Assembly: GCA_030596125.1 (NCBI GenBank)
Contig: JAUVKT010000010.1
Coordinates: forward strand, 1-47,741
Origin: Bacteroidales bacterium
Lineage (GTDB): Bacteria; Bacteroidota; Bacteroidia; Bacteroidales; VadinHA17
DNA: 47,741 nucleotides
Direction of reading: 5' to 3'
The notes under the pieces were generated by a model. It did no database searches. It was not told where the DNA came from and saw only the letters and a program-made list of their open reading frames with translations. The position numbers and the translations under genes were made by a program. Below, piece after piece: positions 6,683 through 28,038 of the stretch (positions are counted from its first letter, which is position 1; every line of letters begins with the position of its first letter).

Positions 6683-7609
6683 ATGACAAAACCGGAATAT
6701 AATATAATTATAGTAACAGGAGCCACGGCTTCAGGTAAAACCGGTTTTGCCGCCAGGCTGGCTCATGCTACCGGGGGAGAGATCATCAGTGCCGATTCGC
6801 GCCAGGTGTACAGGGGTATGGATATCGGTACCGGAAAGGATTATGATGATTACAAAGTAGAAGACATTACAGTACCCGTACATCTTATTGATATAGTGGA
6901 TGCAGGTTATAAGTATAACGTGTATGAATACCAGCACGACTTTATTGAGGTTTATAATAAACTTAAAGCAAGGGGTTGCATGCCTGTTGTTTGTGGTGGT
7001 TCAGGTATGTATATCGATAGTATAGTACAGGGATATAAACTTATTAATGTACCTCCGGATAAGACCCTCAGGGAAGAACTTGAACATTATGATACGACTC
7101 AGCTTGAAGTCCGTTTAAGGAGTTATAAAAATCTGCATAACCGGTCCGACACGGATACCAGAAAGAGAACAGTAAGAGCTATTGAGATTGAAGAGTATTA
7201 TCTGCAAAACAGTGAACTGTCAGGAGAATTTCCTTCTGTCAATCCATTGATTACAGCGATCAGGTATGACAGGGAATCGCGCCGCAGAAGAATATCCGAA
7301 CGCCTCAATGAGAGAATGAAGAGCGGAATGGTAGATGAGGTCCGGCAACTGCTTGATAACGGTATAAGCAGCGAGGATCTTATTTATTACGGACTGGAGT
7401 ATAAATATATAACCCTCTATCTTACCGGGGAATTGTCATACGATAATATGTTCTCATCTCTCGAAACAGCGATACACAGGTTTGCTAAGCGTCAGATGAC
7501 ATGGTTCAGGGGAATGGAACGACGTGGGACAAAAATTCACTGGCTCGATGGTTGTCTCCCTGATGATGAAAAACTTAAGCAAGTACTTGATACCTTCTAC
7601 TTCAGGTAA
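6683..7609 (+). CDS. miaA: tRNA dimethylallyltransferase
   Basis: MiaA transfers a dimethylallyl group to N6 of adenosine 37 in tRNAs reading UNN codons. Motifs seen are the P-loop GATASGKTG, SADSRQVYRGMDIGTGK with the catalytic Asp, CGGSGMYIDS, and the late RFAKRQMTWFRG segment that contacts tRNA. I chose the ATG at 6683 (protein starting MTKPEYN, 308 residues) because the upstream in-frame start at 6638 is TTG and adds 15 residues unlike the family. The gene ends 13 bases inside the 3' end of the convergent S9 peptidase gene. Confidence 0.95.
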   Translation: MTKPEYNIIIVTGATASGKTGFAARLAHATGGEIISADSRQVYRGMDIGTGKDYDDYKVEDITVPVHLIDIVDAGYKYNVYEYQHDFIEVYNKLKARGCMPVVCGGSGMYIDSIVQGYKLINVPPDKTLREELEHYDTTQLEVRLRSYKNLHNRSDTDTRKRTVRAIEIEEYYLQNSELSGEFPSVNPLITAIRYDRESRRRRISERLNERMKSGMVDEVRQLLDNGISSEDLIYYGLEYKYITLYLTGELSYDNMFSSLETAIHRFAKRQMTWFRGMERRGTKIHWLDGCLPDDEKLKQVLDTFYFR

Positions 7610-9657
7610 GCGTCAAGCCATCCGAAAAATTCTCTTTGCCAGATTACAGCATCCTGTGGCCTGGTAACAAAATGAGTTCCGTCATGAAAGAACAGCAAAC
7701 GACTTGGGACCCCATTCATTTGAGCAGCAGTAAAGGCTTCCAGACTCTGTGAATATGGTATTCTGTAGTCGTGCGCTCCTGTGATAATCATGATAGGAGT
7801 ATCCCATTTATCAACATTCAGATGAGGCGAGTAATTGTAGCCAACAGGCCTGGGGTCTTCCCAGTAAGCACCACCCAGATCTTTGTTGGGAAACCAGAGC
7901 TCTTCTGTTGAGCCATACCAGCTCTCAATATTGAACATGCCGCAATGTGAGATAAAGGCCTTGAACCGTTTTTCATGCATACCTGCCAGCCAGAATACCG
8001 AATAGCCACCATAGCTGGCGCCTATTGATCCAAGTCTATCTTCATCAATAAACGGCTCCTTAGCCATGTAATCAATTGCATCCAGATAATCCTGTATGTT
8101 CTTTCCTCCGTAGTCGCCTGATATCTGCTCTCTCCATTCAGAGCCAAAACCGGAGTTCCCCCTCCTGTTTGGTGCCACCACGATATATCCGTTAGCTGCC
8201 ATCATCTGGTAGTTCCACCTGTATGACCAACCCTGGGCAAGCGGACCCTGAGGTCCTCCCTTACAATAAAGCAGAGCAGGATACTTCTTTGAAGGGTCAA
8301 AACCGGGAGGATAAATAATCCACATCTGGAGATCCTCTCCATCTTTGGTTTTTATATATCTCTCCTCCGATTCTCCCATCATTATATTGTCATAAATATG
8401 TCTGTTTACGGAACTTATCTGCGTCACATCTCCTGACGCAATATCAATAGTGGCAATCTCAGTAGCCATAGCCATTGATTTTATACCTGTAACTAATGAT
8501 TCGTTGTTAAGTGTGATCGGACCATAATTGTATTTGCCTGAACTTACCTGGTTAACTGCCCGGGATGCAAGATCAATACTAAAAATTTGGACGGTTCCGA
8601 GGTACGGACTGGTAAAAAATATTTTGCTGTTATCATTCGTCCAGTTGATATTTTCAACGTTATAGTCCCACCCTTCCGATAGCCATGACGTAGATCCGTC
8701 GGCGAAGCTCATAACCATAAGACGGTCGAGATCAGCCTCGTAACCCGGCTCATCCATGCTCTGCCAGGCTATCATGCTTCCATCAGGTGAAAATACGGGG
8801 TATTTGTCAAAGCCTTTGTTTGCCTCTGTTATATTGGTTGTCTTACCTGTTTCACAATCAAAGATCAGGATATCGGTGTTTGTGCTTACAGCATCTTCTT
8901 TTCCTGTTACCTGCTTACATGTATAGGCAATTTTGTTACTGTTGGGGCTCCATGATATCTCACCTCCGTCGAAATAGGGTGCAGTGGGTGATTCAAAGTG
9001 CTGATCCTCCATAATATCTGATGTGCCCGACAGCGCTGTTCCGTCGAACACTGCAACAAAGATGTGACTGTAGGAATAATCGTGCCAGTAATTCCAGTGT
9101 CTGAACATCAGGTCATCAATAATTCGCATATTGGCCTTCGGGAGATCGTGTTTTTCATTTGGTGTCTGGTCGAGTTTTACCCTTCTTGTGAACAGAATCT
9201 TCTTCCCTGTGGGAGAGATTGAATAGTGCTCAAAATCTTCAAGGTTCTTAACTGCCTTCTTTCCTGATCCGTTTGGATTCATGGCCCACAGGTTTCCGCC
9301 GGAGGTAAAAGCTATTTTACTTCCATCCGGAAACCATTGGGGAGAAGTTCCTCCGTCAGTAGTCAGCTGTACGGCATCGCCACCTGCTGATGGTATAGCA
9401 AATATGTCTGTTCTTCTTGCCTCTGTGGGCAGGTCATATTCGGTAACAGTATATAGTACTGTTGTGCCATCCGGCGACAGTGCAATGTTGCCTGCGCGTC
9501 TGAACTTCCAGAGTATCTCAGGGGTCATTATTCCCCCGGCTATTTCAGTTTCATTGAGTTGTAAGTCAAATGCCGGGGTCACTTCAGCTACCTTATCGCT
9601 GCACGACCAGCCTGTTATTATGATAAGGAACAGTAGAAAAGGAGTGTACTTATTCAT
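7597..9657 (-). CDS. Lipoprotein S9-family prolyl oligopeptidase-like peptidase
   Basis: Predicted exported serine peptidase (acylaminoacyl/dipeptidyl peptidase type). Starting at ATG 9657 gives 686 residues with a lipoprotein-type signal ending TGWSC, so it is probably lipidated at Cys19; an upstream TTG at 9678 is less likely. Residues of about 45-430 carry repeated beta-propeller blades (SPDG, FPDGSKIAFTS, SPTGKKILFTR, SPDGSMIAWQS). The C-terminal alpha/beta-hydrolase domain holds the nucleophile in GASYGGY, an Asp in TGAHDYRIP and a His in HDGTHFV, so the triad is intact. It probably processes peptides in the periplasm or at the cell surface. Its 5' end abuts the 107-bp dispersed repeat. 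Confidence 0.9.
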   Translation of the reverse strand: MNKYTPFLLFLIIITGWSCSDKVAEVTPAFDLQLNETEIAGGIMTPEILWKFRRAGNIALSPDGTTVLYTVTEYDLPTEARRTDIFAIPSAGGDAVQLTTDGGTSPQWFPDGSKIAFTSGGNLWAMNPNGSGKKAVKNLEDFEHYSISPTGKKILFTRRVKLDQTPNEKHDLPKANMRIIDDLMFRHWNYWHDYSYSHIFVAVFDGTALSGTSDIMEDQHFESPTAPYFDGGEISWSPNSNKIAYTCKQVTGKEDAVSTNTDILIFDCETGKTTNITEANKGFDKYPVFSPDGSMIAWQSMDEPGYEADLDRLMVMSFADGSTSWLSEGWDYNVENINWTNDNSKIFFTSPYLGTVQIFSIDLASRAVNQVSSGKYNYGPITLNNESLVTGIKSMAMATEIATIDIASGDVTQISSVNRHIYDNIMMGESEERYIKTKDGEDLQMWIIYPPGFDPSKKYPALLYCKGGPQGPLAQGWSYRWNYQMMAANGYIVVAPNRRGNSGFGSEWREQISGDYGGKNIQDYLDAIDYMAKEPFIDEDRLGSIGASYGGYSVFWLAGMHEKRFKAFISHCGMFNIESWYGSTEELWFPNKDLGGAYWEDPRPVGYNYSPHLNVDKWDTPIMIITGAHDYRIPYSQSLEAFTAAQMNGVPSRLLFFHDGTHFVTRPQDAVIWQREFFGWLDAYLK

Positions 9658-9757
9658 ATGTTTATAATTTATTTTCAATGGTCACATGGAACCGCATTAA
9701 ATGAATAATCATTCCCCTGTGTGAAAAAAATAATTATTCTTTTAATGCTTGTTTCAT
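9651..9757 (+). repeat. 107-bp dispersed repeat, copy A
   Basis: This sequence matches 26913-27019 with six mismatches in 107 bases, in the same orientation and without gaps. It contains an imperfect stem: GAATAATCATT pairs with AATTATTCTTT across a CCCCTGTGTG loop region. One end overlaps the first codons of the S9 peptidase, so the element forms that gene's immediate upstream region. In this copy the frame used by rnc in copy B is closed by TGA at about 9702. It encodes no transposase and may be MITE-like. Confidence 0.82.
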
Positions 9758-9776
9758 AAGGTATAAGGATTATGAG

Positions 9777-10055
9777 TTTTGTAACTATTTCGTGTCTTAA
9801 GTTTGAATTGCTTAAAATGGCAAATCTTATTATCCTTTGCATCTTTAAGTCGGCAATCTTCAGTCGGCAGTCAGCCCGTCCGACCGGAGTCATCCGGGCG
9901 GGCAATCTGAAGATAAGGCTATATACAGTTAAGTTCCTAAATTCAATTGCCATTGTGTATTAATTGTTTGATTGTTATTTGCTTTTTTGCCGATTGTGGA
10001 CTACTTTGCCCTTCCGAAGCTCGAAACGAAGTGGAGAGCGAAAGAGGGTGGACTG
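9777..10055. repeat. Right arm of long inverted repeat
   Basis: This is the inverted counterpart of 1-206. Its outer part (about 9970-10055) is nearly identical to bases 1-85, and its inner part (9777-9873) matches 108-206. The arms differ in the middle, where this copy carries extra sequence including a GC-rich palindrome at 9874-9903 (GCCCGTCCGACCGG against CCGGGCGGGC). Together with copy A of the 107-bp repeat it fills most of the 486-base space between the peptidase and the next gene. Translations across it look spurious. Confidence 0.8.
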
Positions 10056-10119
10056 TCGACTGATTAATTACAAAAGTTTTATTCTCTTATTATTACTATA
10101 GGATTTAAAAAAATTGCCT

Positions 10120-25632: not shown

Positions 25633-26880
25633 ATGAGAAGGGTTGTAGTAACTGGCTTAGGAGCAATAACTCCTTTAGGGAAAAATATTGCTGAAACCTG
25701 GGAAGGATTAAAAAACGGCGTCAGTGGTTCTGACTGGATTACCAGGTTTGATACCGAAAAATTCAGAACAAAATTTGCCTGTGAAGTAAAAAACTACGAC
25801 TTCAAAGATTATTTTGACCGTAAGGAAGCTCGTAAAATGGACCGGTATACTCAGTTTGCCCATATTGCGGCAGATGAGGCAATCACTGACTCGGGACTTG
25901 ATCTCGAAAGCATCGACAAAGATAGGGCTGGTGTTATTTGGGCTTCCGGAATTGGAGGGCTGGACACCTTCTTAGAGGCAATAAGGGAGTTTGTAAAGGG
26001 CGATGGAACACCACGTTTCAGCCCTTTCTTTATTCCTAAAATGATCAGTGATATTGCCGCAGGACTGATTTCCATTAAATATAATTTTCGTGGTCCGAAT
26101 TTTTCTACTGTTTCGGCATGTGCCTCCTCAACTCACGCCTTAATTGATGCTACAAATTATATTCGGATTAATAAAGCCGATATTTTTGTGGCCGGCGGCT
26201 CAGAATCCACAATAAACGAGGCTGGCATTGGCGGATTCAATTCTATGCAGGCCATGTCAACCAATAATGATGAATATAAGACTGCTTCCCGTCCGTTCGA
26301 CGGAACCAGGGATGGATTCGTGATGGGAGAGGGAGGCGGAGGCCTGATTCTAGAGGAGTATGAACATGCAAAAGCAAGGGGTGCAAAAATTTATTGTGAA
26401 GTTGTTGGCACTGGAATGACAGCTGATGCATACCACTTTACTGCTCCTCATCCGGAAGGTCACGGAGCCTATAAAGTGATGAAACTGGCCATTGAAGAAG
26501 CCGGTCTTACTCCTGAAGATATAGATTATATTAATGTTCACGGTACAGCAACCCCACTTGGAGACATCTCCGAAGCTGTTGCCATCGTAAGGCTTTTTGG
26601 CGAGCATGCATATAAACTTAATATTAGTGCCACAAAATCTATTACAGGCCATCTCCTTGGTGCAGCAGGTGCTGTAGAATCAATTGTCTCTATCATGGCT
26701 CTGAAACACGGGATTATTCCTCCAACCATTAACTATAAGGTTGCTGACCCCCTGATTGATTCAAAACTAAACCTTACGGTAAACAAGGCACAAAAAAGAG
26801 ATGTGAAGGTTGCCATTAGTAATACATTTGGTTTTGGTGGTCACAATGCTACCGTTATCATGAAGAAAATTGACCTTTAG
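25633..26880 (+). CDS. fabF: Beta-ketoacyl-ACP synthase II
   Basis: FabF elongates acyl-ACP by condensation with malonyl-ACP in the cytosol. The 415 residues carry the catalytic triad: Cys163 in VSACASSTHA, His in VHGTATPLGD (about residue 303) and His in TKSITGHLLGAAGA (about 340). The terminal GFGGHNATVIMKK motif is intact. It sits between acpP and rnc on the same strand. The stop codon TAG overlaps a GTG that opens the rnc frame (TAGTG at 26878-26882), but the more likely rnc start is further downstream. Confidence 0.98.
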   Translation: MRRVVVTGLGAITPLGKNIAETWEGLKNGVSGSDWITRFDTEKFRTKFACEVKNYDFKDYFDRKEARKMDRYTQFAHIAADEAITDSGLDLESIDKDRAGVIWASGIGGLDTFLEAIREFVKGDGTPRFSPFFIPKMISDIAAGLISIKYNFRGPNFSTVSACASSTHALIDATNYIRINKADIFVAGGSESTINEAGIGGFNSMQAMSTNNDEYKTASRPFDGTRDGFVMGEGGGGLILEEYEHAKARGAKIYCEVVGTGMTADAYHFTAPHPEGHGAYKVMKLAIEEAGLTPEDIDYINVHGTATPLGDISEAVAIVRLFGEHAYKLNISATKSITGHLLGAAGAVESIVSIMALKHGIIPPTINYKVADPLIDSKLNLTVNKAQKRDVKVAISNTFGFGGHNATVIMKKIDL

Positions 26881-26912
26881 TGTGTCTCTCCTCCGGAAAA
26901 GAAAAAACGGAT

Positions 26913-27019
26913 TATTCATATGTTTATAATTTATTCTTAATGGTCATATGGAACCGCATTAAAAGAATAATCATTCCCCTGTGTAAAAAAAATAATTATT
27001 CTTTTAATACTTGTTTCAT
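26913..27019 (+). repeat. 107-bp dispersed repeat, copy B, overlapping the rnc start
   Basis: Ungapped match to 9651-9757 with six mismatches. AAAAGAATAATCATT can pair with AATAATTATTCTTTT (one mismatch). Unlike copy A, the frame entering rnc is open throughout. The ATG at 26940 lies inside the element, so it appears to supply the first 26 or so codons of rnc. Confidence 0.82.
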
Positions 27020-27707
27020 CTTAGATAAAAAAGTCTTCTCTTCCCGACTTAAAAAAATATTGGGTTTCAGGCCCTCCGATCTGCGTATTTACGAAATGGC
27101 ATTTATACATAAATCGGCAACTCATACTCTTCCTGACGGAACACAGATCAACAATGAGAGACTTGAATTCCTTGGTGACACAGTGCTTGACACTGTTCTG
27201 TCTGAATTTCTGTTTGAAGTATATCCTGATGCCAATGAGGGAGAATTAACAAAAATCAGATCCAGAATAGTTAACAGACAGATGCTCAACAAGCTATCTC
27301 TTTCGATAGGGATAAACAATCTGCTTATAAGTCATCTTGATAAAAACAACCCTACCCAAAACCTTTACGGAGATGCCCTCGAAGCTCTGATAGGATCTGT
27401 TTTCGTTGATCGCGGTTATTCCAGGACAAAAAGATTCATTATAAACTCTATCATTAAAAACCACCTTGATCTCAGGAAAATTGTTACTACCGAAACCGAT
27501 TATAAGAGTCAGGTCTTTCAGTGGGCACAGAAATTAAATCGTCAGATCAGTTTTAACTATATCGAAGATTACGACTTTATCAATAAAAAAAGCCTCTTCA
27601 CCACGACATTGAAAATTGATCATGAAATATTTGGAGAAGGCAGCGGTACGTCAAAGAAAGAGGCAGAACAGATGGCCTCACTCCAGGCATGGAATAAAAT
27701 CAAATGA
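26940..27707 (+). CDS. rnc: Ribonuclease III
   Basis: RNase III cuts double-stranded RNA in rRNA and mRNA processing. From ATG 26940 the protein has 255 residues. The catalytic signature NNERLEFLGDTVLD is present with its acidic residues, as is GDALEALIGSVFVDRGY, which holds the second acidic pair. The C-terminal dsRNA-binding domain ends GEGSGTSKKEAEQMASLQAW. The conserved core begins near RLKKILGFRPSDL. Before it, no ATG or GTG occurs in frame outside the 107-bp repeat, so the repeat seems to provide the start codon and N-terminal residues (MVIWNRIKRIIIPL). A GTG at 26880 overlapping the fabF stop would give 275 residues. Confidence 0.93.
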   Translation: MVIWNRIKRIIIPLCKKNNYSFNTCFILDKKVFSSRLKKILGFRPSDLRIYEMAFIHKSATHTLPDGTQINNERLEFLGDTVLDTVLSEFLFEVYPDANEGELTKIRSRIVNRQMLNKLSLSIGINNLLISHLDKNNPTQNLYGDALEALIGSVFVDRGYSRTKRFIINSIIKNHLDLRKIVTTETDYKSQVFQWAQKLNRQISFNYIEDYDFINKKSLFTTTLKIDHEIFGEGSGTSKKEAEQMASLQAWNKIK

Positions 27708-27787: not shown

Positions 27788-28038
27788 AAAGGCTAAGGCT
27801 GAGGCTAAGGGATTTGACTGCTCATTGTAGGCTTATTAAATTCAATTTGTCTCTTTTCTTTATTTTTTAGACATACCTTTCCTATTTTCTTTTGTTTACT
27901 TATTTGAAATTTTTCAGCATTTCGCTCATAGTACTAGCATTCTTTAGCTTGTATCTATTTTATCTGCCCTGAAGGTATTACCTCGTCAGGCTTCTAAAAC
28001 CTCTTACCTCCCTTAGCCTCAGCCTCATCCTTAGCCTT
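27788..28038. repeat. Hexamer-based inverted repeat around an AT-rich spacer
   Basis: The left arm (27788-27812) reads AAAGGCTAAGGCTGAGGCTAAGGGA. The right arm (28010-28038) is its inverse with one additional hexamer. The arms are built from GGCTAA/GGCTGA units. The roughly 200-base spacer is AT-rich, with no open frame worth calling. Together this occupies most of the 429-base gap between rnc and the next gene; I see no RNA gene. It could be a MITE or a large hairpin. Confidence 0.75.

Follow-up and report, generated by a model that had tools for sequence, protein, structure and literature searches.

A palindromic, apparently mobile repeat at the start of an RNase III gene in a Bacteroidales bacterium

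The repeat at the start of rnc and its family

Does the beginning of an RNase III gene (rnc) stem from a repeat, and if so, what kind of repeat is it and how is it read? The question was raised by a 47,741-nucleotide contig of a Bacteroidales bacterium (the window, meaning the whole stretch of DNA that was analysed), in which a 107-bp repeat had been noticed just before the conserved rnc core. The repeat was borne out by the follow-up: positions 26913-27019 (copy B) and 9651-9757 (copy A) are identical at 101 of 107 positions, and the likeness is lost beyond both edges, where the flanks diverge (identity 23/60 on the left and 17/60 on the right). Since the pair gives an E-value of 2e-44 within the window, chance similarity was excluded. 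The reading-frame observations of the original prediction were likewise reproduced: ATG 26940 lies inside the element, there is no in-frame ATG or GTG between it and the RNase III core, and the frame is open in copy B and interrupted by TGA in the same frame of copy A. Copy A and a third copy on contig C53 both have TGA where copy B has AGA. The copy B base at this site completes the right stem of the element, and a different copy B base disrupts a stem pair; the open frame of copy B may thus be either ancestral or derived, as both fit the three copies.

The genome is a draft of 2.70 Mb in 165 contigs. BLAST of the 107 bp against it gave 51 matches at E<=10 and 30 at E<=1e-5, query included (65 first-look candidates, 40 scored). 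This search had been proposed as a check in which many copies would mean a mobile element and two a duplication, and many were found, far beyond two. A 36-base left-end pattern with up to three mismatches matched 26 times, the reversed control pattern not once. From the 74 loci gathered by BLAST and pattern searches, 36 distinct left ends of at least 34 bits were retained. The subfamily of the rnc copy consists of three full copies (B, A and C53:15419) and a right half at the edge of contig C150, and 17 copies of a second subfamily with a different right-hairpin sequence match most of a 134-base query, query included. Tandem copies have one TTCAT in common, both in this genome (contigs C53, C4 and C42) and in the closed genome G328, where a unit of 131 bases is repeated in tandem. 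The family thus comprises many dispersed copies with the same ends and no transposase gene, as in MITEs in the broad sense. It departs from MITEs in the strict sense, as there are no terminal inverted repeats: TTCAT has the same orientation at both ends and the hairpins are subterminal.

The element is about 100 bp long. TTCAT marks both of its ends, and it forms a hairpin on the left and a long one on the right. In copy B (forward strand throughout), a TTCAT at 26915-26919, which we read as the target pentanucleotide and which stands first at the left of 35 of the 36 copies in this genome, is followed by the 100-bp inserted element (26920-27019) with its own right-end TTCAT (27015-27019). By folding and alignment, the left hairpin has the arms CATATG (26917-26922) and CATATG (26945-26950), and folding places the arms of the right hairpin at 26958-26971 and 26995-27008. 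More generally, the left stem reads CATnTG..CAnATG with 22-24 bases between, and the right stem has up to 14 pairs. The motif ATGGAAC (26948-26954) is complementary, with one G-T pair, to the right end GTTTCAT and is possibly guide-like; such a pairing would resemble that between guide and cleavage site in IS200/IS605 elements (PMC6006769). DNA folding of copy B gave both hairpins (z -1.9), whereas in copy A ATGGAAC was paired with GTTTCAT instead (z -1.7); three other strands gave z -3.3 to -3.8.

Eighteen full copies were aligned, three of the rnc type and six of the other type from this genome and nine from four other genomes, leaving out L135 (which ends in TTTCAA) and longer and shorter forms. 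The right TTCAT is identical in all 18, which is partly a matter of choice, since a recognisable right end was the criterion for picking copies. The TTCAT on either side of a copy may represent a target-site duplication, or a target and a matching end. Across the 18 copies, 87.1% of stem cells were paired, compared with 33-48% when the stems were slid, and 14 cells had changed on both sides compared with 5.4 in shuffles. Three of the five measures (paired cells, cells with a change on both sides, covariation score) exceeded every one of 500 shuffles, whereas the other two did not stand above them (number of pairs with a change on both sides, 186/500; additional pair types, 277/500); the structure used was the fold of one of the aligned sequences. 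RNAalifold alone recovered the left stem only. One of the six left-stem pairs varies on both sides (CG/AU/GC, paired in 15 of 18), with a change on both sides in four sequences and a failure in three, and the listed copies of genome G347 have CATCCG/CGGATG as left stem. In the left hairpin, the 3' arm of several copies of G328 contains a further palindrome resembling TACCTGTCCCGAT..ATCGGG (L268, L269, L270 and L276), as if a second repeat family targets the palindromes of the element.

Position of the copies at start codons

TTCAT is the reverse complement of ATGAA, and the left ends of the copies often coincide with the starts of genes. Copy A (9653-9757, forward strand) is an example: its left TTCAT (9653-9657) supplies the ATG (9657-9655) of a reverse-strand gene (7597-9657, MNKYTPFLLFLIIIT...) for an S9 peptidase resembling Dpp5, with 865.3 bits, which is below the cut-off of 900. 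For 25 of the 36 copies in this genome, and for 24 of the 32 that were not flagged as tandem, an open reading frame of 60 codons or more begins at the ATGAA formed by the left TTCAT. The tandem flag is crude: L106, whose 87-codon frame extends to the edge of its contig, was flagged, and L104 and L096 were not, although both seem to lie directly against another right end. A test of this kind in G328 placed 17 of 25 copies, from 38 left ends, at such starts, a count with at least two doubtful matches, one on each side of it. The downstream genes are unrelated: next to the Dpp5-like peptidase, which was found by model search, purA-, dnaN-, rfbA- and response-regulator-like starts were recognized by eye.

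Among the 181 ATGAA/TTCAT sites of the window, 15 are at starts, 155 within coding sequence and 11 elsewhere, according to rough ORF calls. Outside coding interiors, gene starts therefore make up 15 of 26 sites, compared with 24 of 32 element copies, so that the target sequence and the loss of harmful insertions may suffice to explain the placement, and a special seeking of start codons is not needed. Three of the 36 copies are crossed by a reading frame of at least 80 codons, in a test that is blind to genes broken by a copy: the rnc copy, L107 (a frame of 114 aa without a Pfam match above cut-off) and L111 (an extension of a start past a truncated left end). The rnc copy is accordingly the only one of 36 that is read through by a recognised gene. 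In G328, tandem arrays were observed upstream of single genes (L274:1926-2449, L275 and L278), and every inner copy would add a short upstream ORF, often beginning MNRA..., to the leader.

Insertion into rnc and the alternatives

The rnc gene lies behind fabF (beta-ketoacyl synthase, 25633-26880, forward strand), in the same order as in relatives. The original prediction overlooked that the rnc frame is open upstream of the element as far as a GTG at 26880-26882 that overlaps the fabF stop (TAGTG). Read from there, through the element, rnc extends over 26880-27707 on the forward strand and encodes 275 aa (TIGR02191, 174.2 bits, cut-off 166.25). Nine other genomes of the family have the same overlap, there 34.0 codons nearer the core, which makes this GTG the likeliest present start. 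A second GTG (26882-26884) is in the frame of the gene before the insertion, as judged from relatives.

When 26920-27019 is left out, the sequence reads GTG(26882)-SLLRKRKNGLFI|LDKKVF, like the relatives' (V)SLLNNKLNGTYILDKREF; in full, the joined reading from GTG 26882 is VSLLRKRKNGLFILDKKVFSSRLKKILGF, and that of two relatives VSLLNNKLNGTYILDKREFGSRLRKLLGF (L034) and VSLFLKKRNGTYILDKKEFGQRLRRILGF (L035). This match to an empty site indicates that the element was inserted into rnc. The comparison of rnc N-termini with those of relatives, which had been suggested as a check, thus found the extra sequence to be absent there, and the copy number, the defined ends and the empty-site match together support the predicted insertion of a MITE-like element at the start of rnc.

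Of 41 rnc loci examined, 36 could be measured from the fabF stop to the core motif NNERLEFLGD (our own included, two genomes twice). The distance is 89.67 codons here and 44.3 to 74.3 in the other measured loci; in each of the nine other genomes with the TAGTG overlap it is 55.67. The gain is exactly 34 codons, which corresponds to the 100 bp of the element and an extra TG (TAGTGTG). In the filled site, a stop follows soon after GTG 26882, whereas the frame from GTG 26880 continues to the end without a stop. On its own, the insertion displaces the old frame, and one frame only is open through the element.

No second genome with the same insertion was found in a protein search of the family, in which rnc was detected in 108 of 117 genomes, own included, and the case for the insertion consequently rests on one draft assembly. 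Outside this genome, no rnc match began before query residue 14, save for a separate stretch of 40 residues in G114 (54% identity); the matches of other genomes that start at residues 14-29 were covered by the spacing comparison only where they were among the examined loci.

We consider it quite probable that, as a whole, these findings are explained by a mobile element that was inserted in rnc and is read through from GTG 26880. In this lineage, a copy would have entered after a TTCAT within about codon 13 of rnc, in the orientation relative to the gene that is opposite to most copies. The 100 bp and the extra TG, where relatives have a single TAGTG, would amount to a net 102 bp, the TG being a compensating change that arose before or after the insertion. 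Alternatively, GTGTG may be ancestral and not compensating, and the exact 34 codons would then be partly luck. Translation from the conserved GTG 26880 would pass through the one open frame of the element into an intact RNase III core, and the enzyme, presumably still functional, probably carries about 34 extra residues, with residues 14-47 involving the element.

The rnc product matches the RNase III domain and dsRBD models and scores above the NCBI equivalog cut-off. Its core is free of stops and retains the conserved columns common to 26 relatives, NNERLEFLGD and others. In the predicted fold, pLDDT mostly exceeded 85 in the core and ranged over 36-53 for the blocks of ten residues that make up residues 1-50, so the shape of the extension is not reliably readable; the prediction used 27 rows, of which those of the relatives stop short of the extension. 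A hairpin of AU-rich 18-base arms (26958-27008) now lies within the rnc message, with an RNA z of only -2.1 for copy B, and it is conceivable as a target for autoregulation by RNase III. Just downstream of rnc, an inverted pair AAGGCTAAGGCTGAGGCTAAGG was observed at 27789-27810 and 28017-28038, about 0.2 kb apart; these are possibly the ends of another small element.

The closest competitor accepts the same insertion and lets translation begin at ATG 26940, as originally predicted, so that both the start codon and the first 27 residues would come from the element. In favour of ATG 26940, it is in frame and is the only ATG before the core, and GTG generally makes a weaker start codon. The GTG at the fabF stop is, however, in the same place in nine other family genomes and in frame here, and the bases before ATG 26940 (TTATTCTTA) are unlike the A-rich stretch that precedes the element-end ATGs of other genes. 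We therefore regard a start at ATG 26940 as rather unlikely and the start as probably GTG 26880: that the element supplies the start is not established, and residues 14-47 of a longer protein are a more likely contribution than the first 26 residues. The proposed domestication is borne out only in the sense of an open frame. A more pessimistic account, in which the insertion broke the frame and rnc is decaying behind a frame that is open by chance, draws on the single open frame and on the shift that the insertion alone would cause; it fits poorly with a stop-free core that keeps the columns of its relatives and passes the equivalog cut-off, and we hold it to be improbable. That the junction is an assembly artefact caused by the repeat is more improbable still. 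The assembly is a draft in many contigs, one of which (C150) starts inside a copy, but copy B has its own sequence with six differences from copy A, lies well inside a 47.7-kb contig, with more than 20 kb on each side, and sits in a fabF-rnc order found in relatives.

The remaining alternatives concern the repeat itself. One possibility left open by the original prediction was that copy A arose as a stray duplicate of the 5' end of rnc, without any mobile element. A pair of copies with 94% identity in the window would agree with that, but the 36 left ends in the genome, the occurrence across the order (103 of 295 genomes) and the lack of extra length in the measured rnc genes of relatives do not; the empty-site match refutes it, and we give this duplicate origin practically no credence. 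Another reading is that the element is not mobile and is a conserved 5'-leader RNA, a riboswitch-like regulator before start codons. The 24 of 32 copies standing exactly at a frame with an element-end ATG speak in its favour, as do three gene-sense strands that folded as RNA with z -3.6 to -5.7. Against it stand the unrelated downstream genes, the tandem arrays with a common TTCAT, identical copies at separate places in G328 and G367, and the rnc copy, which is reversed and inside coding sequence. Searching seven copy-bearing loci against 4227 Rfam families gave three matches, none of which reached its gathering score or lay at an element, and a described Rfam RNA was rejected on this basis. 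The leader-RNA reading appears improbable to about the same degree as a decaying rnc.

Distribution, related systems and the search for a mover

A covariance model was built from the 18 copies and applied with strict filters in searches of both the order and the phylum. Matches were obtained in 103 of 295 genomes of the order (E<=0.01) and in 20 of 395 genomes of a phylum sample (E<=0.001), own genome counted in both. On these sequence matches, the element appears to occur widely in the order and more sparsely across the phylum. An exact left-end pattern was found in seven stretches of genome_contigs, from Bacteroidota (five) or Cyclobacteriaceae (two) MAGs; a near-identical exact left-end pattern had no match in viral_contigs, where a link to phages was looked for. 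With a query that includes the left end, no match at E<=0.001 was found in G001 or G014, which belong to the genus closest by rnc. G328 contains three identical 107-base copies in different places, and G367 seven equal-scoring copies in different places, four of which were seen in sequence and are identical. These identical copies point to recent spread.

Several known systems share features with the element, as far as the sources describe them. Palindrome-associated transposable elements (PATEs) are related to the IS605 type and were described in Haloquadratum walsbyi (PMC3119063). PATEs and the element are alike in being too short for a transposase, in having near-end palindromes and no terminal inverted repeats, and in their heterogeneous internal sequence and partial, terminal-only copies (PMC3119063). 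The near-end palindromes, the lack of inverted repeats and the fixed left sequence indeed agree with the PATE/IS200-IS605 type. The difference is that no IS605-type transposon with the ends of the element was found, that the organisms are others and that the ends of the element abut start codons. REP/TnpA-REP and IS200/IS605 ends also have hairpins near both ends and a fixed short left flank, and as in IS200/IS605 ends a possible guide, ATGGAAC, lies just 5' of the right hairpin of the element (PMC6006769). Unlike REPs, which have GTAG-type tags (PMC6006769), the element has TTCAT, a length of ~100 bp and a left loop of 22-24 nt, and its copies do not flank the Y1 genes examined here. Rickettsia palindromic elements (RPEs) have repeatedly been inserted in frame into protein genes (review PMC10969869), and the rnc copy resembles them in that a protein gene is read in frame across a palindromic repeat. 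Compared by description, in-frame insertion is habitual for RPEs (PMC10969869), whereas a single recognised case among 36 copies was found here, and an RPE-like habit was accordingly not observed. Searches of open-licence PMC papers listed no title or abstract beginning that describes the element family or an rnc insertion of such a kind.

The 107-bp repeat would accordingly be a copy of a non-autonomous, palindrome-bearing and apparently mobile element that sits at TTCAT, and a single-strand (HUH/Y1-type) route is a plausible means of its movement. Matches to Y1 transposases numbered seven in this genome and 16 across all six element-rich genomes checked. At the seven own Y1 loci, BLAST of the element returned only a 19-base internal palindrome (L066). 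The covariance model, applied to the 16 Y1 loci of the six genomes and to four of the seven own loci, gave one partial match, ~1.1 kb from the Y1 gene of L202. No IS that carries a Y1 transposase gene and has the ends of the element was found among the Y1 loci checked. An autonomous copy was found neither at two right-end-only relics nor around the left-end matches of G328, where the sequence was read by eye for element ends.

TnpA proteins of subclass 1.2 have the signature Y---Q--HH, occur mostly in Bacteroidetes and Cyanobacteria and generally lack typical IS200 ends, according to PMC6006769. This signature was present in nine of ten aligned Y1 proteins from seven element-bearing genomes, the tenth having YH for HH. 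A profile was used to trace such genes, leaving out RAYT-like proteins (L205, L206, L209, L211 and L212) and broken or near-duplicate ones. At E<=1e-10, a subclass 1.2 Y1 gene was detected in 76 of 103 genomes with the element and 95 of 192 without it (Fisher p 7e-5, uncorrected for relatedness, with the 295 genomes taken as one set). The association is loose: such a gene was missing at the same threshold from 9 of the 31 genomes with at least seven listed copies, and a Y1 of subclass 1.2 was consequently not concluded to be the mover.

Tentatively, and with more doubt than confidence, we hypothesize a phylum-wide single-stranded DNA element whose target, TTCAT, would let it land on start codons without harm to the protein and give the gene a ready-made leader. 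It may be moved in trans by an orphan Y1 enzyme, possibly of subclass 1.2, members of which generally lack recognisable ends, and rare insertions in the wrong direction, such as that in rnc, would add N-terminal segments. What appeared as a two-copy curiosity has thus become a widespread repeat family, one end of which coincides with the start codons of unrelated genes. It can now be tested whether a selfish element lives safely on start codons while rewriting 5' leaders, and by which enzyme it is moved. The rnc gene would be a clear case, found in nature, of a core enzyme that includes translated repeat DNA and whose frame has been preserved to the exact codon.

Two further observations concern repeats other than the ends of the element. 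To the right of copy A, the stretch 9716-10071 is itself repeated: parts of it recur in the first 436 bases of contig C150, a stretch of which parts in turn match the first 206 bases of the window on the opposite strand. Y1 genes of this genome (L062-L064 and L066) are flanked by GC-rich palindromes of their own, such as CCCCGAG..CTCGGGG, and palindromes like these were also seen inside short forms of the element.
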